Below, piece after piece: positions 1-6,196 of a stretch of DNA of 32,296 nt. Made by a program: the position numbers and the translations under genes. Every line of letters starts with the position of its first letter. The first letter of the stretch is position 1. The notes under the pieces were generated by a model that was given only the letters and a program-made list of their open reading frames with translations, was not told where the DNA came from and did not search any database. Source of the stretch: an uncultured cyanobacterium (GTDB lineage Bacteria; Cyanobacteriota; Vampirovibrionia; Gastranaerophilales; Gastranaerophilaceae); the NCBI GenBank assembly GCA_946545285.1, contig CAMNNA010000005.1, positions 1 to 32,296 on the forward strand, written 5' to 3'.

Positions 1-1045
1 CATTTACCCCGCCTGCCATAAATTCACTTTCAATAAATGAAATATAGTATCTTGGCGGAATTATCATAGTTAAGTATTGGAAAAACACAGGCATTGAATT
101 TATCGGAAATAGTAACCCCGATAGCATCAGAGCAGGCATAAATCCCAGACTTATTGAAACCATACTTGCCATAAATTGATTTTTTAGGGCAGTTGAAATC
201 ATTAAACCAATACCAAGTGATGTAAACAAGAAAATTCCGCTTATTAAGAAAAACATAAAATAACTACCCCGAAACGGCACTTGAAATATGCAAACAGCAA
301 GGAACATATTAAATGCTGTTGATAACATTCCCAAAACAAAATACGGGATGTATTTGCCAAGCACAATATGAATTGCTTTGACTTTTGTACTTAATAATGC
401 CTCCATTGTTCCTCTTTCCCACTCACGTGCAATAACAAGAGAAGTAAGCAATATTCCGATTAAAGTCATCGTAATTGCTATAGACCCGGGGACAATAAAA
501 TAATGAGAGTTCAAATCAGGATTATACCATGTCCTGTTTTCTATATTAATTAGAGGTTGGGGGAAATGCATTTTATACTTACTTGTGATTAGCCATTGAT
601 TAGTAATCATATTGGCATAACTTTGAACATAGTTTGCGCTATTAACTTCACTACCATCTGTTATAACAAGTAAACTCGCCCTATCATTTACCCCATTTAC
701 CCCATTTACCCCTTGCCCTCTTGATAATTTTGACGAAAAATCGTTTGGAATAATTACAGCCCCTTTTATTTTAGAACTTAAAACAGCAGTTTTAATATCT
801 TCCATATTATCAAAATTTATGGAATTAACGTACTTGCTATGACCGAAAGATTTGACTAATGTAGCAACTTCCGGCGAGTTATCATCATTTTTTATTCCAA
901 GGGTAATTTTTACTGAATCGAGATTTATTCCGTACATATAAATCGTAATTGATATAATTGGCAAAATAAAAGCAATAACAATACTTGACGGATCTCTCAA
1001 TATCTGTTTTATTTCTTTTTTAATTAAGGCTAATAGGATTTTCAT
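1..1045 (-). CDS. ABC-2 type transporter permease (YbhS/YhhJ/YbhR-like), C-terminus cut by window edge
   Basis: Open minus-strand frame from ATG (cat at 1043-1045) to window edge, hand-translated MKILLALIKKEIKQILRDPSSIVIAFILPIISITIYMYGINLD...WERGTMEALLSTKVKAIHIVLGKYIPYF...; hydrophobic C-terminal half; adjacent to ATPase, MFP and OMP genes. Not in the ORF track because it is truncated. Confidence 0.9.
   Translation of the reverse strand, partial: MKILLALIKKEIKQILRDPSSIVIAFILPIISITIYMYGINLDSVKITLGIKNDDNSPEVATLVKSFGHSKYVNSINFDNMEDIKTAVLSSKIKGAVIIPNDFSSKLSRGQGVNGVNGVNDRASLLVITDGSEVNSANYVQSYANMITNQWLITSKYKMHFPQPLINIENRTWYNPDLNSHYFIVPGSIAITMTLIGILLTSLVIAREWERGTMEALLSTKVKAIHIVLGKYIPYFVLGMLSTAFNMFLAVCIFQVPFRGSYFMFFLISGIFLFTSLGIGLMISTALKNQFMASMVSISLGFMPALMLSGLLFPINSMPVFFQYLTMIIPPRYYISFIESEFMAGGVN
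686..712 (-). repeat. 3 x 9-bp tandem repeat (ATTTACCCC; GGGGTAAAT on coding strand) encoding GVNGVNGVN
   Basis: Direct reading: ATTTACCCC at 686-694, 695-703, 704-712. Confidence 0.97.
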
Positions 1046-1051
1046 ACTAAT

Positions 1052-2728
1052 TTACCCCTCGCTTTCCTTAATTAACGTAATGAATGTTTCTTCCATCGTT
1101 ACGTCATTCTGAGCGAAGCGAAGAATCTCATCATTTGTATGAGATCCTTCGGGCTTTGCCCTCAGGATGACAGAAGCGGCTTTTTGCTTCAATTCTGCAG
1201 GTGTACCCACTGCAATAGTTTCACCTTTATAAAAAAGAGAAATCCTGTCGCAATATTCAGCTTCATCCATAAAATGGGTTGTAACCATTATTGTTACACC
1301 TTTTTTGGCTAATGATGTTATATGATTCCAAAAATCACGTCTTGTCAATACATCAACACCGGATGTGGGTTCATCTAAAAACAAAACAGGAGGGTTATGA
1401 ATTAACGCTGCCGCCATTGAAAGTCTTTGTTTTAAGCCAAGCGGCAGTTCTTCTGCCTTTGAATTTTCATATTCTTTTAGTCCAAAAACTTCAATTACTT
1501 CATTAACCTTTTCTTCTTTTTTTAGCATGCTTATTCCATAGGCAAGAGCAAAAAAATCTAAGTTTTCGCGAACGGTTAAACTCCCGTATAGAGAAAATTT
1601 TTGTGCCATATATCCTAAATTTGCTCTTGCACGCTCGGGATTTTTCTTTATATCAATACCCATAATTCTTGCGGTACCTGATGTCGGGCGAGCAAGTCCG
1701 CACATCATTTTAAATGATGTTGATTTTCCTGCTCCGTTTGGTCCTAAAAGCCCAAAAATTTCACCTTTTTTTATTTTGAAGGTGTTATTTTTTACCGCAT
1801 AAAAATTACCGTATCTTTTTTCTAAATTATCCGCTTCAACTGAGTAAAGGGTTTCTGTTATTTCACCCCTCCCTACCCCTCCCCGTCCGGGGCGGGAATT
1901 GGATTGTGCTCCTTCCCCTGATGGGGAAGGTTGGGATGGGGTGATTTTATTAAGTTCCTTATATTCGTAGTTTTTCGCAATTAAGGATTCTTCTTTATTA
2001 TAACCGCCCATTAAGTCAATAACTTTATTTTCAAACTCTTGCGGAGTCGGGGCAAGGTCGTGAGGTTTCCCTTCATAAATAACCCTACCTTTGTCTATAA
2101 CAACCGCCGTATCAAAGCTGTGAGCCTCATCTAAATAAGCTGTTGACCACAAAACCGTTGTTTCAGGGTTTATCATTTCTCGGACCATTTTCATTAAATC
2201 TCTGCGAGATATAGGATCAACTCCGACAGATGGTTCATCTAAAAGTAAAAATTCGGGATTTCCAAGTAAAGTACAAGCAAGTCCTAGTTTTTGTTTCATA
2301 CCGCCTGATAATGCCCCTGCAAGTCTTTCCTGAAAGGGTGCAAGAGTTGTAAATTCCAACATCTTATCAAAATCGTGTGCAACACCTTTTAAATCAGCAT
2401 ACAATTTTAAATTTTCCAGAACAGTTAAATCTTCATATAAACCAAATTTTTGAGGCATATAGCCAAGGGGTAAATGTATTTTACCGTCCTTAGTATAACC
2501 TTCAAGTAATTTGTCTTTTTCAGTGACAGGATTAAAACCTAGCACATTTATTTCACCAACATTAGGCAACAATAAACCGATTATTGTTCTTAATAGAGTG
2601 GTTTTACCGGCTCCATCAGCTCCAATTAAACCTGTAATTTTACCTTTTTCTATATTTAACGACAGATCATCAATAGCAACGGTAGAGCCAAAATTTTTAG
2701 TTAAATTCTTGATTGTTACCGCGTACAT
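1052..2728 (-). CDS. Fused double ATP-binding-domain ABC transporter ATPase (YbhF-like)
   Basis: Two Walker A motifs (GADGAGKTT, GPNGAGKST), two signature regions (LSGGMKQKLGLA; LPLGLKQRLSMA), two Walker B (FLLLDEP, VLFLDEP). Confidence 0.95.
   Translation of the reverse strand: MYAVTIKNLTKNFGSTVAIDDLSLNIEKGKITGLIGADGAGKTTLLRTIIGLLLPNVGEINVLGFNPVTEKDKLLEGYTKDGKIHLPLGYMPQKFGLYEDLTVLENLKLYADLKGVAHDFDKMLEFTTLAPFQERLAGALSGGMKQKLGLACTLLGNPEFLLLDEPSVGVDPISRRDLMKMVREMINPETTVLWSTAYLDEAHSFDTAVVIDKGRVIYEGKPHDLAPTPQEFENKVIDLMGGYNKEESLIAKNYEYKELNKITPSQPSPSGEGAQSNSRPGRGGVGRGEITETLYSVEADNLEKRYGNFYAVKNNTFKIKKGEIFGLLGPNGAGKSTSFKMMCGLARPTSGTARIMGIDIKKNPERARANLGYMAQKFSLYGSLTVRENLDFFALAYGISMLKKEEKVNEVIEVFGLKEYENSKAEELPLGLKQRLSMAAALIHNPPVLFLDEPTSGVDVLTRRDFWNHITSLAKKGVTIMVTTHFMDEAEYCDRISLFYKGETIAVGTPAELKQKAASVILRAKPEGSHTNDEILRFAQNDVTMEETFITLIKESEG
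1103..1171. repeat. Palindromic intragenic repeat of the 'EILRFAQND' type
   Basis: gtcattctgagcgaagcgaagaatctca ... tgagatccttcgggctttgccctcaggatgac; imperfect inverted halves around a short loop; in frame in the ATPase gene. Confidence 0.85.
1863..1944. repeat. Palindromic intragenic G/C-rich repeat of the 'PSPxGEG' type, two inverted halves
   Basis: tcacccctccctacccctccccgtccggggcgggaa ... ctccttcccctgatggggaaggttgggatggggtga; right half reverse-complements to the left half with few differences. Confidence 0.85.
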
Positions 2729-2731
2729 GGG

Positions 2732-3625
2732 CTAATTCCCTTCACCCCTTTGAGGATAGGGATTTGGTGAAGGGTTATCATTTAACCCTAAATCCACTTT
2801 TATTGTTACAGGCATTCCCTGTCTTAGAAATTCATCTGTATCATAAATATAGACTCTTATTCGATATACTAAATCAGTTCTTGTATCCGTTGATTGAACA
2901 GTTTTAGGAGTAAACTCAGCAACCGGTGAAATATACCCGATTTGTCCTTTGTACTCTCTTTTCTTACCTGTGTTTGGATCAATAGTATCAGTATATACAT
3001 TTACCCCCTGTCCGTATTTAATATTGCCCAAATCTGTTTCATTAACATAGGCTCTAACCCAAACAGGATTAGTTTTTGCCATTGTATAAACGCTCTGGCC
3101 TTTTTGAACATTACTTCCCGGTTCAACGACACGAACCATAATAGTTCCATCTTCGGGCGCATATAGTTTTGTATATTTTAATTGATTACTTAAATAATCT
3201 TTGTTCGCAATTGCTGCTTTATAATCTGCATTTGCCTTATTTTGTGCGTTATATAATGATTCGACTTCTTGTTTGGAAACTGTATCATCAACTCCTAAAG
3301 GAGCGTATCTGTTATATTTATCGGTTGCATCTTTTTGTATTGCAATTGTTCTTTCTACTTCTGCTTCTGCTTTTTTAAAATTTGCATCATAATCTGATTC
3401 ATCCATAACTGCAATTAATTCACCTTTTTTGACTGTGTCCCCTTCTTCTTTTAAGAGTTTTGAAACCAAACCGGGAACTTGAAAAGACAAATCAACCTGC
3501 CTTATTTCAATATTACCAAATAATGTTAATTCATTTGATGTATCTTTTTTATTAGCTTTATAGAAATAAATACAAAGTCCTGCAATTAAAATTATTAAAA
3601 CTAATGCTATAATCTTTTTCTTCAT
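2732..3625 (-). CDS. HlyD-family membrane fusion protein (efflux periplasmic adaptor)
   Basis: N-terminal TM, biotinyl-lipoyl-like GLVSKLLKEEGDTVKKGELIAVMD, coiled-coil hairpin, YAPEDGTIMVRVVEPGSNVQKGQSVYTMA. Confidence 0.93.
   Translation of the reverse strand: MKKKIIALVLIILIAGLCIYFYKANKKDTSNELTLFGNIEIRQVDLSFQVPGLVSKLLKEEGDTVKKGELIAVMDESDYDANFKKAEAEVERTIAIQKDATDKYNRYAPLGVDDTVSKQEVESLYNAQNKANADYKAAIANKDYLSNQLKYTKLYAPEDGTIMVRVVEPGSNVQKGQSVYTMAKTNPVWVRAYVNETDLGNIKYGQGVNVYTDTIDPNTGKKREYKGQIGYISPVAEFTPKTVQSTDTRTDLVYRIRVYIYDTDEFLRQGMPVTIKVDLGLNDNPSPNPYPQRGEGN
2738..2774. repeat. Single-unit 'NPSPNPYPQRGEG' type palindromic repeat at the 3' end of the HlyD-type gene
   Basis: cccttcacccctttgaggatagggatttggtgaaggg; perfect terminal arms cccttcacc/ggtgaaggg; encodes NPSPNPYPQRGEG just before the stop. 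Confidence 0.75.
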
Positions 3626-3672
3626 TTTTTCTCCTTTTTGAACAATTTTTGTATGTTTCGATAAATTTACGC

Positions 3673-5007
3673 TTAGAGTTTACCTCCAACGGTTTTATAT
3701 AGTGTGTAATAATTAACTAACTTTTGAGTTTTTGCTTTCGTTAAATCCATATCTTTATTAATATATTGGTTTTCAGAATTGATGTATTGTGTTTTTGAAA
3801 TAACCCCACGATTTAACATTTTTTCTGCATTATGCAAATTTTGGGTTTCCAAATTTAATTTTTCATTTACCCCATTTTCAATTTCCGTATCGTGTTTTAT
3901 AATACAAAGTGAAGTATTAACTTCCTTTACGGCATCTAAATCGACTTGTCTGTACTGTTCAAAAAGTTCTTCATATTTTGCTTTTTGGAATTTTAAATTG
4001 GCAATTTTTCTACCGCCTGTGAATATATCTTGCGTTGCACCTGCAAGCAGTGCGGCAAGAGAAGATTCCCAGGAGAAAAATGTCCCCGGAGCGATTGTAT
4101 TAAATGCCCAAATGCCGGTTATATTAAACCTCGGCAGAAATTCTTTTCTTGCGACACGAATATCTATTTTTGCTTTTTCCAATGCCATTTCAGCTCTTTT
4201 AACATCAGGTCTTGAGAATATAATATCAGACTCTATTTCGCTTGGAATTAGTGCATTGTATTCAAAATCATCTATATTTCCACGTGAAATGTCAGAATTA
4301 ATCGTTTCCACATTTACCCCGCGACCTATCAAAACCGCAAATTGCATTAAAAGAACTTCTCGTTGTTTAATAAGATTTTCCAGTGTTATATTTGCTTGTT
4401 CAACATTAGTTTTAGAGTTGTTTAATTCGGTTGTGTTTATAACACCGCGAGCGAATTTTTTGTTATCATCATTTAAAATTTGATTATAATTATTAACGAT
4501 TTTTTCTTGTTTGTCTATAAGTTTGTCATATTCTAAAATATTTGTATAAACCGCTGCAACATCTGATAATAGCGCTAAATATGCACTTTGCTCATCAAAT
4601 TTACTCATTTCATAAGTCTTTTTAACACTCTTTGTTTTATCCCTGTTTTTTAGAAGAAAATCAGCCTCATAGTTTGCCATAAAAGGTAATACAAAAGCAT
4701 TTTTGCTCACCCTCAAATTTGGATTAAATTTTGGAGAATGAATTCCTAAATAACTTGCGGCAACACTAAAACTCGGTAATTCGTTTGCAAACTGAGATTT
4801 TACACTCTGCCTGTATTCTTCCACCCTTATTGTTGCTTGTTTTGCATTGTGGTTATTATCTATCGCTTCATTAACATATTGTAACAAATAGTCATCATTA
4901 AAACGAGAGAAAAACTCTACATTCAAATCTTTTCTATCAACTGCAAAACAGGGAGAAATTATTAAATTCATGAGAAATATTAGTCCTACTATAATTTTCT
5001 TATTCAT
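3673..5007 (-). CDS. TolC-family outer-membrane efflux protein
   Basis: Signal peptide, duplicated long helical repeats, 'SRPDVKRAEMALEKAKIDIRVARKEFLPRFNITG' typical of OEP family; operon context. Confidence 0.92.
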   Translation of the reverse strand: MNKKIIVGLIFLMNLIISPCFAVDRKDLNVEFFSRFNDDYLLQYVNEAIDNNHNAKQATIRVEEYRQSVKSQFANELPSFSVAASYLGIHSPKFNPNLRVSKNAFVLPFMANYEADFLLKNRDKTKSVKKTYEMSKFDEQSAYLALLSDVAAVYTNILEYDKLIDKQEKIVNNYNQILNDDNKKFARGVINTTELNNSKTNVEQANITLENLIKQREVLLMQFAVLIGRGVNVETINSDISRGNIDDFEYNALIPSEIESDIIFSRPDVKRAEMALEKAKIDIRVARKEFLPRFNITGIWAFNTIAPGTFFSWESSLAALLAGATQDIFTGGRKIANLKFQKAKYEELFEQYRQVDLDAVKEVNTSLCIIKHDTEIENGVNEKLNLETQNLHNAEKMLNRGVISKTQYINSENQYINKDMDLTKAKTQKLVNYYTLYKTVGGKL

Positions 5008-5281
5008 TTATCGCTCCAGCTTTCATTAAAAGTTCTTGTATATAAATCCAAGTATTATTTTAATTATAACTTTAAATATTTTAATAAGATAATCAATTAT
5101 TTGATTTTTGTCAAACTCTGCATTCACTTTTTTTCAATACCATTGTCAATATACAAAGATTTAATTTTTTTCATCAAATAATTATTGAATCAACTATTCA
5201 AAATCATCGAACTTGCAATTATTTTAAAACCGATATCATATAGTAAAAAAATAAATTTTCTCCATTTACACTCTCGGATTA

Positions 5282-6196
5282 CTAGGCTCTCGGGTGGGTG
5301 TGATCATAAACTTCTTTCATATGTTGGGTTGATATATGAGTGTAAATTTGGGTATTTGAAATACTTGCATGCCCCAACAGTTCTTGTACGACCCTTAAAT
5401 CTGCGCCGTTTTCAATCAAATGAGTCGCAAAACTGTGCCTAAACATGTGGGGAGTTACATGCTTTGGTAATTGAATTTTTTTAGTTATATCATTAATTAC
5501 ATTACGTATCATTTTGGTTTGAAGCCGGTATCCGGTTTTGTTGATAAAAACAGGAGTTGAGTCGTTGATTGGCGGTAAATCATAACCTTTTGCAATAAGC
5601 GGTCTTGCGTAATCAATGTATGATTGCAGATATTTTTTTGCTCGATCAGTTATTAAAATTATTCTTTCCTTTGAACCTTTACCAAAAACGGTAATTTCAT
5701 TATTTTCTAAATTTAAATTTCCAAAATTTAGTCCGCTTAGTTCTGAAACTCTCATTCCTCCTGCCCATAGAAGTTCTAATATTGCTCTGTTTCTATAGCC
5801 TGACGGTGTACTTATATCTATACTGCTTAATATTTCTTCAATCTCATCTGTTGAGAGGAATTTTGGTAATGGTTTCGGTCGTTTGGGGGATATTAAGTTT
5901 TGTGCCGGATTTGAATCAATTTTTTGCTCTCTGCTGAGGTATTTGTAATAGGTCCGAAGTGACGCTATTTTGCGGGCTAAGGTCGTTTTTTTGTAGTTAA
6001 ATTTTTGCATGAAATGAAGATAATTTCGCATAATATCAAGGTTTACGTCATTTGAGCTGCGATTATCTAACCAGATTAAATAGCTTAAAATGTCGGCGCA
6101 GTAAGCTTTTGCGGTATGCTGTGAGAAGTTCTTTTCCACTATTAAATATGACTTAAAACCCTCTAAATTTTGTTTCGATTCTTCATTTAAACCCAT
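5282..6196 (-). CDS. Tyrosine recombinase, XerC/XerD type
   Basis: N-terminal SAM-like domain and catalytic motifs: ELLWAGGMRVSELSGL, HMFRHSFATHLIENGADLRVVQELLGHASISNTQIYTHIS. Confidence 0.93.
   Translation of the reverse strand: MGLNEESKQNLEGFKSYLIVEKNFSQHTAKAYCADILSYLIWLDNRSSNDVNLDIMRNYLHFMQKFNYKKTTLARKIASLRTYYKYLSREQKIDSNPAQNLISPKRPKPLPKFLSTDEIEEILSSIDISTPSGYRNRAILELLWAGGMRVSELSGLNFGNLNLENNEITVFGKGSKERIILITDRAKKYLQSYIDYARPLIAKGYDLPPINDSTPVFINKTGYRLQTKMIRNVINDITKKIQLPKHVTPHMFRHSFATHLIENGADLRVVQELLGHASISNTQIYTHISTQHMKEVYDHTHPRA

Follow-up and report, generated by a model that had tools for sequence, protein, structure and literature searches.

The efflux operon and its three palindromes

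The DNA analysed here, called the window throughout, is the complete contig 5 (32,296 bases) of a 1.56-Mb draft genome of an uncultured gut member of the Gastranaerophilales. Its first 5,007 bases hold an operon of the drug-efflux type on the minus strand, in which three palindromes and a recurrent nine-base repeat were found. Read along that strand, the operon encodes a TolC-type outer-membrane efflux protein (3673-5007; PF02321, E=4e-34), a HlyD/CusB-type membrane-fusion protein or adaptor (2732-3625; PF16576 and PF13437), a tandem ATP-binding cassette (ABC) ATPase of 558 amino acids with two nucleotide-binding domains, NBD1 and NBD2 (1052-2728; PF00005, E=7e-61, in two stretches), and an ABC-2 type permease (1-1045; PF12698, E=9e-38), which is truncated by the contig start at window base 1. 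Relatives from the same order include metagenome-assembled genomes of Candidatus Gastranaerophilales of ruminant, other-animal and bird origin, and in the relatives' operons a second permease comes next after the first. The ratio of nonsynonymous to synonymous substitution rates between the window and close relatives is 0.07-0.16 for all four proteins (0.07-0.13 for the ATPase), indicating that the four are maintained under purifying selection.

The three palindromes of the original prediction were confirmed at the coordinates given there and as non-random, with folding energies lying well below those of composition shuffles (z = -4.8 for 1100-1174, -4.9 for 1860-1947 and -4.0 for 2735-2777), and no 90-nt stretch of the whole window is more stable than 1861-1950. 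The two inserts within the ATPase gene keep the reading frame, while the third palindrome makes the tail of the HlyD-type protein. None was detected by a default inverted-repeat search, because they are imperfect; a scan for perfect-stem hairpins is likewise too strict for them. No structured RNA of Rfam matched above its gathering score in bases 1-6000, and no GTAG tag was found at the ends of the three palindromes.

The first palindrome (1102-1172) lies close to the C-terminal end of the ATPase and lengthens the protein by about SVILRAKPEGSHTNDEILRFAQND. It consists of two inverted units, 1102-1130 and 1140-1172, the first being CGTC followed by ATTCTGAGCGAAGCGAAGAAT and the second, inverted, TGTC followed by ATCCTGAGGGCAAAGCCCGAAGGAT, so that the tags (CGTC before ATTCTGAG... 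and TGTC before ATCCTGAG...) are outermost. A model of repetitive extragenic palindromes (REP), R2, scored the units at 38.0 and 31.0 bits. By these features the palindrome is built like a head-to-head dimer of CGTC/TGTC-tagged REPs. Rickettsia palindromic elements (RPE) fall within this known class, RPE-4 and RPE-6 being classed as CGTC repeats (Di Nocera et al., 2013, PMC3733652). The likeness to the published elements extends to the tag (the TGTC variant is described there), the head-to-head arrangement with tags outside and, less certainly, a stem beginning with A-T pairs. The published stem is 8-9 bp long, with complementary A and T first and a loop of 4-5, and in 1102-1172 the first five bases are paired (ATTCT/AGAAT and ATCCT/AGGAT) with a mismatch deeper in. 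Some published copies are intragenic, in frame and add 20-30 amino acids, as is likewise seen here; the class is listed in Proteobacteria, Chlorobi, Bacteroidetes, Spirochaetes and Thermotogae, not in Gastranaerophilales (PMC3733652). With the loose model R2 (E<=0.05), 19 REP copies were found in the window genome and from 5 to at least 150 in 14 relatives. AlphaFold2 models the C-terminal REP insert as a helical hairpin that precedes the last helix, with a predicted local distance difference test (pLDDT) score of about 80-90.

The other two palindromes resemble a family defined in this analysis, named FB, which is untagged and has the peptide NPSPQPSPQRGEG. The second (1863-1944) is a nested palindrome in the NBD1-NBD2 linker with the peptide ITPSQPSPSGEGAQSNSRPGRGGVGRGE, probably made of two FB-like hairpins. 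It has an FB-like look (peptide TPSQPSPSGEG) yet scores just 20.4 bits with the FB model R1, a weak mark of membership, and it was not recovered by R3, an FB model built from 20 copies that all lie outside the operon; it probably belongs to FB. In the AlphaFold2 model this insert is disordered (pLDDT<50 at residues 260-291). The third (2737-2776, minus strand) forms the C-terminal tail NPSPNPYPQRGEGN of the HlyD-type protein. Its 47.4 bits come from R1, a model trained on 2737-2776 itself; the independent R3 gives 22.7 bits (E=0.024) for 2736-2775, compared with up to 63 bits for inserts of relatives, so that its place in the family is likely and not firm. Neither R1 nor R2 found a further copy in the remaining 27 kb of the window, and the further stretches of very high stability (around 8041, 12766 and 27091) are terminator-like and lie at or between gene ends, as had been foreseen in the original prediction.

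One common FB form is open in five of the six frames. FB inserts occur in either orientation and in more than one frame, which speaks against a required peptide. In the same genomes, FB and REP elements are also found between genes and within genes other than those of the operon; FB copies elsewhere are often intergenic, with several inside other genes, notably pilin-like ones. In three type IV pilin-like genes (L200, L203 and L204, locus numbers being given with L) FB lies in the leader, immediately preceding the FTLAEV cleavage motif; at L222 and L223 of the window genome it directly follows such a motif. Genes of this type are another recurrent target. The suggestion that the element types resemble widespread bacterial repeats is supported. 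That the repeats are several and unrelated proved only partly true: palindromes two and three seem to be members of a single broad family, and the nine-base repeat is a short repeat found genus-wide.

Recurrent insertion in related operons

An operon alignment of the window with eight relatives was complemented by a survey of 77 homologous ATPase loci. On these comparisons the palindromes of the window are insertions and not conserved sequence, since relatives have none or different ones at the same loci. The REP dimer is missing from L047, L049, L050, L051, L052 and L053, is present as the same insert in L046 and L069 and as a variant in L048 and L060. The linker palindrome gives way to a shorter palindrome in L046 and L069 and is lacking in the remaining aligned relatives, and FB copies occupy the same linker in several relatives. 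For the HlyD tail, a related palindrome is found in L053 and a TGTC-type REP pair at the gene junctions of L046 and L047; L048 has a different, longer insert, and most other aligned relatives have no counterpart. FB itself is at the same tail position in L053, L056 and L059.

Inserts in the 77 ATPase homologues have three sites: beyond residue ~116, at ~257-263 and at ~517-520. These correspond to a loop of NBD1, the linker between the two NBDs and the C-terminus, and the HlyD tail or junction adds a fourth. The inserted DNA is either FB, in both orientations, or REP dimers of two sequence types, with a few inserts holding no recognisable repeat (L086, L089). Near relatives have different families at the same codons: at the C-terminus the window and L069 have the REP dimer, the equally close L057 and L058 have FB, and L059 has another TGTC dimer. 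On a tree built leaving out the insert columns, the minimum number of state changes is 11 for the C-terminus, 6 each for linker and loop, and 9 for the HlyD tail or junction. Many operon-bearing genomes are without any insert. In L057 (5000-6551) an in-frame TAA in the linker splits the tandem ATPase, perhaps into two half-proteins, suggesting that the linker is tolerant. A cluster of many TGTC-type REP units was also observed upstream of the outer-membrane efflux gene (L112:786-1576).

Genomic repeat density was taken from searches of the whole genome and from sampled stretches totalling 391 kb. An enrichment calculated with R1 (26 copies in the operon vs 1.8 expected) was treated as biased, this model being partly trained on the operon, and the calculation was redone with R3, which found 516 FB copies over 40 genomes. 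At >=27 bits, the operon holds 21 of these (1.8 expected) and its ATPase gene 12 (0.43 expected). When weaker R3 matches are included, all 25 copies in the relatives' loci fall within the operon, and 184 kb of flanking sequence has none (p=2.5e-7, Poisson p values here ignoring shared ancestry and assuming a 6.9-kb operon). The operon is therefore a hot spot of palindrome insertion, at linkers and termini and in frame, in the window and also in relatives. The repeats were not found at a similar density genome-wide, nor do relatives share them as conserved residues, so that neither outcome that would have refuted the original prediction was seen.

A short repeat amplified in the genus

The window has 10 copies of the 9-mer GGGGTAAAT (0.27 expected), the recurrent 9-mer of the original prediction; it is not specific to the operon, and at least two copies, at 1-10 and 2998-3007, are ordinary conserved codons. 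Of the 24 copies of the 10-mer GGGGTAAATG in the 1.56-Mb genome, the window holds 9, and the 10-mer was found in 40 of 40 genus genomes at about 3-117 copies each (0-6 for the reversed control). Counted as events, the operon holds six in 4.3 kb (p about 1.5e-11 vs the density of its own genome), although two of the copies are the ordinary codons just named. The short repeat is thus amplified genus-wide, yet locally excessive in the operon.

Three tandem copies of GGGGTAAAT (685-712, minus strand) lie within a 30-nt insertion in the permease gene (GVNGVNGVN) that is missing from the eight aligned relatives; the triple copy expands a site holding one copy in L109 and L056. The copy at the ATPase-permease junction (1050-1058, minus strand) does span a stop codon as had been claimed, giving the ATPase its TAA and a G-rich stretch ahead of the permease ATG; it sits in a small insertion common to L046, L057, L058 and L069. 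The copy at 2467-2475, on the opposite (plus) strand, adjoins a 30-nt insertion in the ATPase gene (about 2486-2515), an arrangement also seen in L056, and the copy at 4312-4320 (minus strand) adjoins a 9-nt insertion in the outer-membrane protein gene, also in L057.

Elsewhere in the genus the 10-mer is often tandem and in several loci stands right before start codons, where GGGGTAAATG could supply a stop codon together with a G-rich ribosome-binding stretch. It is found at the joints of composite repeats in G008, and in G044 arrays of 51-bp units, each with GGGGTAAATG, lie on two contigs (L152, L153; about 1.5 kb apart). Small dispersed repeats (SDR) and short tandemly repeated repetitive (STRR) sequences of cyanobacteria are very short, dispersed and sometimes tandem, and the 10-mer resembles them in these respects.

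Origin and significance of the insertions

The insertions are probably best explained by non-autonomous palindromes that insert widely and persist where they are tolerated. The elements would be short insertions of the REP/RPE kind, here a CGTC-tagged REP dimer and the untagged FB family, among many such families spread through Gastranaerophilales genomes and presumably moving as hairpins with the help of a trans-acting enzyme. Insertions that disrupt an efflux protein would be purged, while in-frame landings in the NBD1 loop, the NBD1-NBD2 linker, before the last helix, in the HlyD tail and at gene junctions would be tolerated, the inserts remaining as additional, neutral peptide until decay or replacement. 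As the proteins are maintained, frame-breaking insertions would be lost, and frame preservation is best read as survivorship. Tolerance rather than targeting would then make the operon a hot spot.

Several observations weigh against this explanation, in addition to the limits of the Poisson values. Five other FB-rich genomes have the operon with no FB within it. The ATPase gene is ~28-fold above expectation, though most multidomain proteins have tolerant loops, and tolerance alone may be insufficient for such an excess. No Y1 transposase was detected in the window genome, and most of the RAYT-like (REP-associated tyrosine transposase) genes examined in the genus are flanked by GTAG palindromes of unrelated sequence.

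Y1 transposases of RAYT size are present in half of the genus genomes. Their loci (L180-L199, e.g. L190, L188 and L186), where the genes have GTAG-tagged palindromes such as GTAGGTTGGGCATACCTGCCCAACA on their flanks, look like REPtrons, the association of GTAG REPs with RAYT transposases, in Gastranaerophilales. The operon palindromes are unlike REPtrons in being untagged by GTAG and in not flanking RAYT genes. Mobilisation of the operon palindromes by RAYT is not supported, as the flanks of the RAYT genes mostly hold other GTAG palindromes and no such gene was detected in the window genome. In the published view CGTC repeats have no dedicated transposase (PMC3733652), with which the absence here agrees.

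A true target preference, in which a DNA feature of the sites or a resident element attracts new palindromes and leads to replacement, is unlikely. Different families at the same C-terminal codons of close relatives, flanks of the same loci without FB matches and the 9-mer copies adjoining FB inserts speak for it, but the sites have no obvious common sequence, they coincide with structural loops and gene ends, and many operon-bearing genomes are insert-free. It is decidedly doubtful that some process actively steers the 9-mer and several unrelated families of palindromes to the operon, so that loops of the pump and gene junctions are rewritten time and again, perhaps adaptively.

It is very improbable that the inserts are functional, their peptides tuning the pump or their mRNA hairpins setting the ratio of operon products. 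They do persist in proteins under purifying selection, many lie at gene junctions and 3' ends, and the C-terminal REP insert is modelled with good pLDDT as a helical hairpin, but most relatives are insert-free, the peptides vary in sequence, orientation and frame, and turnover among close relatives is fast.

Acquisition of the operon from a repeat-rich donor with the repeats already aboard, which had been proposed in the original prediction, is extremely improbable: the operon is patchy (matched at E<=1e-100 in 5 of the 24 other genomes of the genus) and its identities are discordant, but operon order is the same, G+C rises only slightly (36% in the first 2.5 kb vs 32-34% elsewhere), no donor-like homologue with the same three-repeat set was found among the 77 loci, and the inserts, missing in many homologues, differ between sister species, so that most came after the operon. 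The window ATPase is 83% identical to a copy from another family vs 78-79% to some same-genus copies, and a flanking gene in the same comparison is 69% identical to the other family and 82-85% within the genus; with the patchy distribution, this makes transfer or paralogy of the operon inside the order likely, which does not account for the repeats.

RPE are also in-frame palindromes in many proteins that are likely still functional; they differ in lineage and sequences and are spread over varied genes, not focused on one operon. Among CGTC REPs, recB of two Xanthomonas is one gene pair struck at about the same site (PMC3733652), whereas here several families strike the same sites of one gene in many species. 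Literature searches with the repeat sequences returned no report of the operon elements. The kind of element is known, and as far as the literature searched shows, the repeated invasion of one operon's loops by several families is new. Intragenic in-frame palindromes are known, but a single case tells little of their origin. The many species examined here are natural replicates, with empty sites, one family, another family and possibly eroded inserts in one conserved operon, and they open to study how new protein segments get seeded and whether selfish palindromes select the sites they enter or are simply tolerated there.

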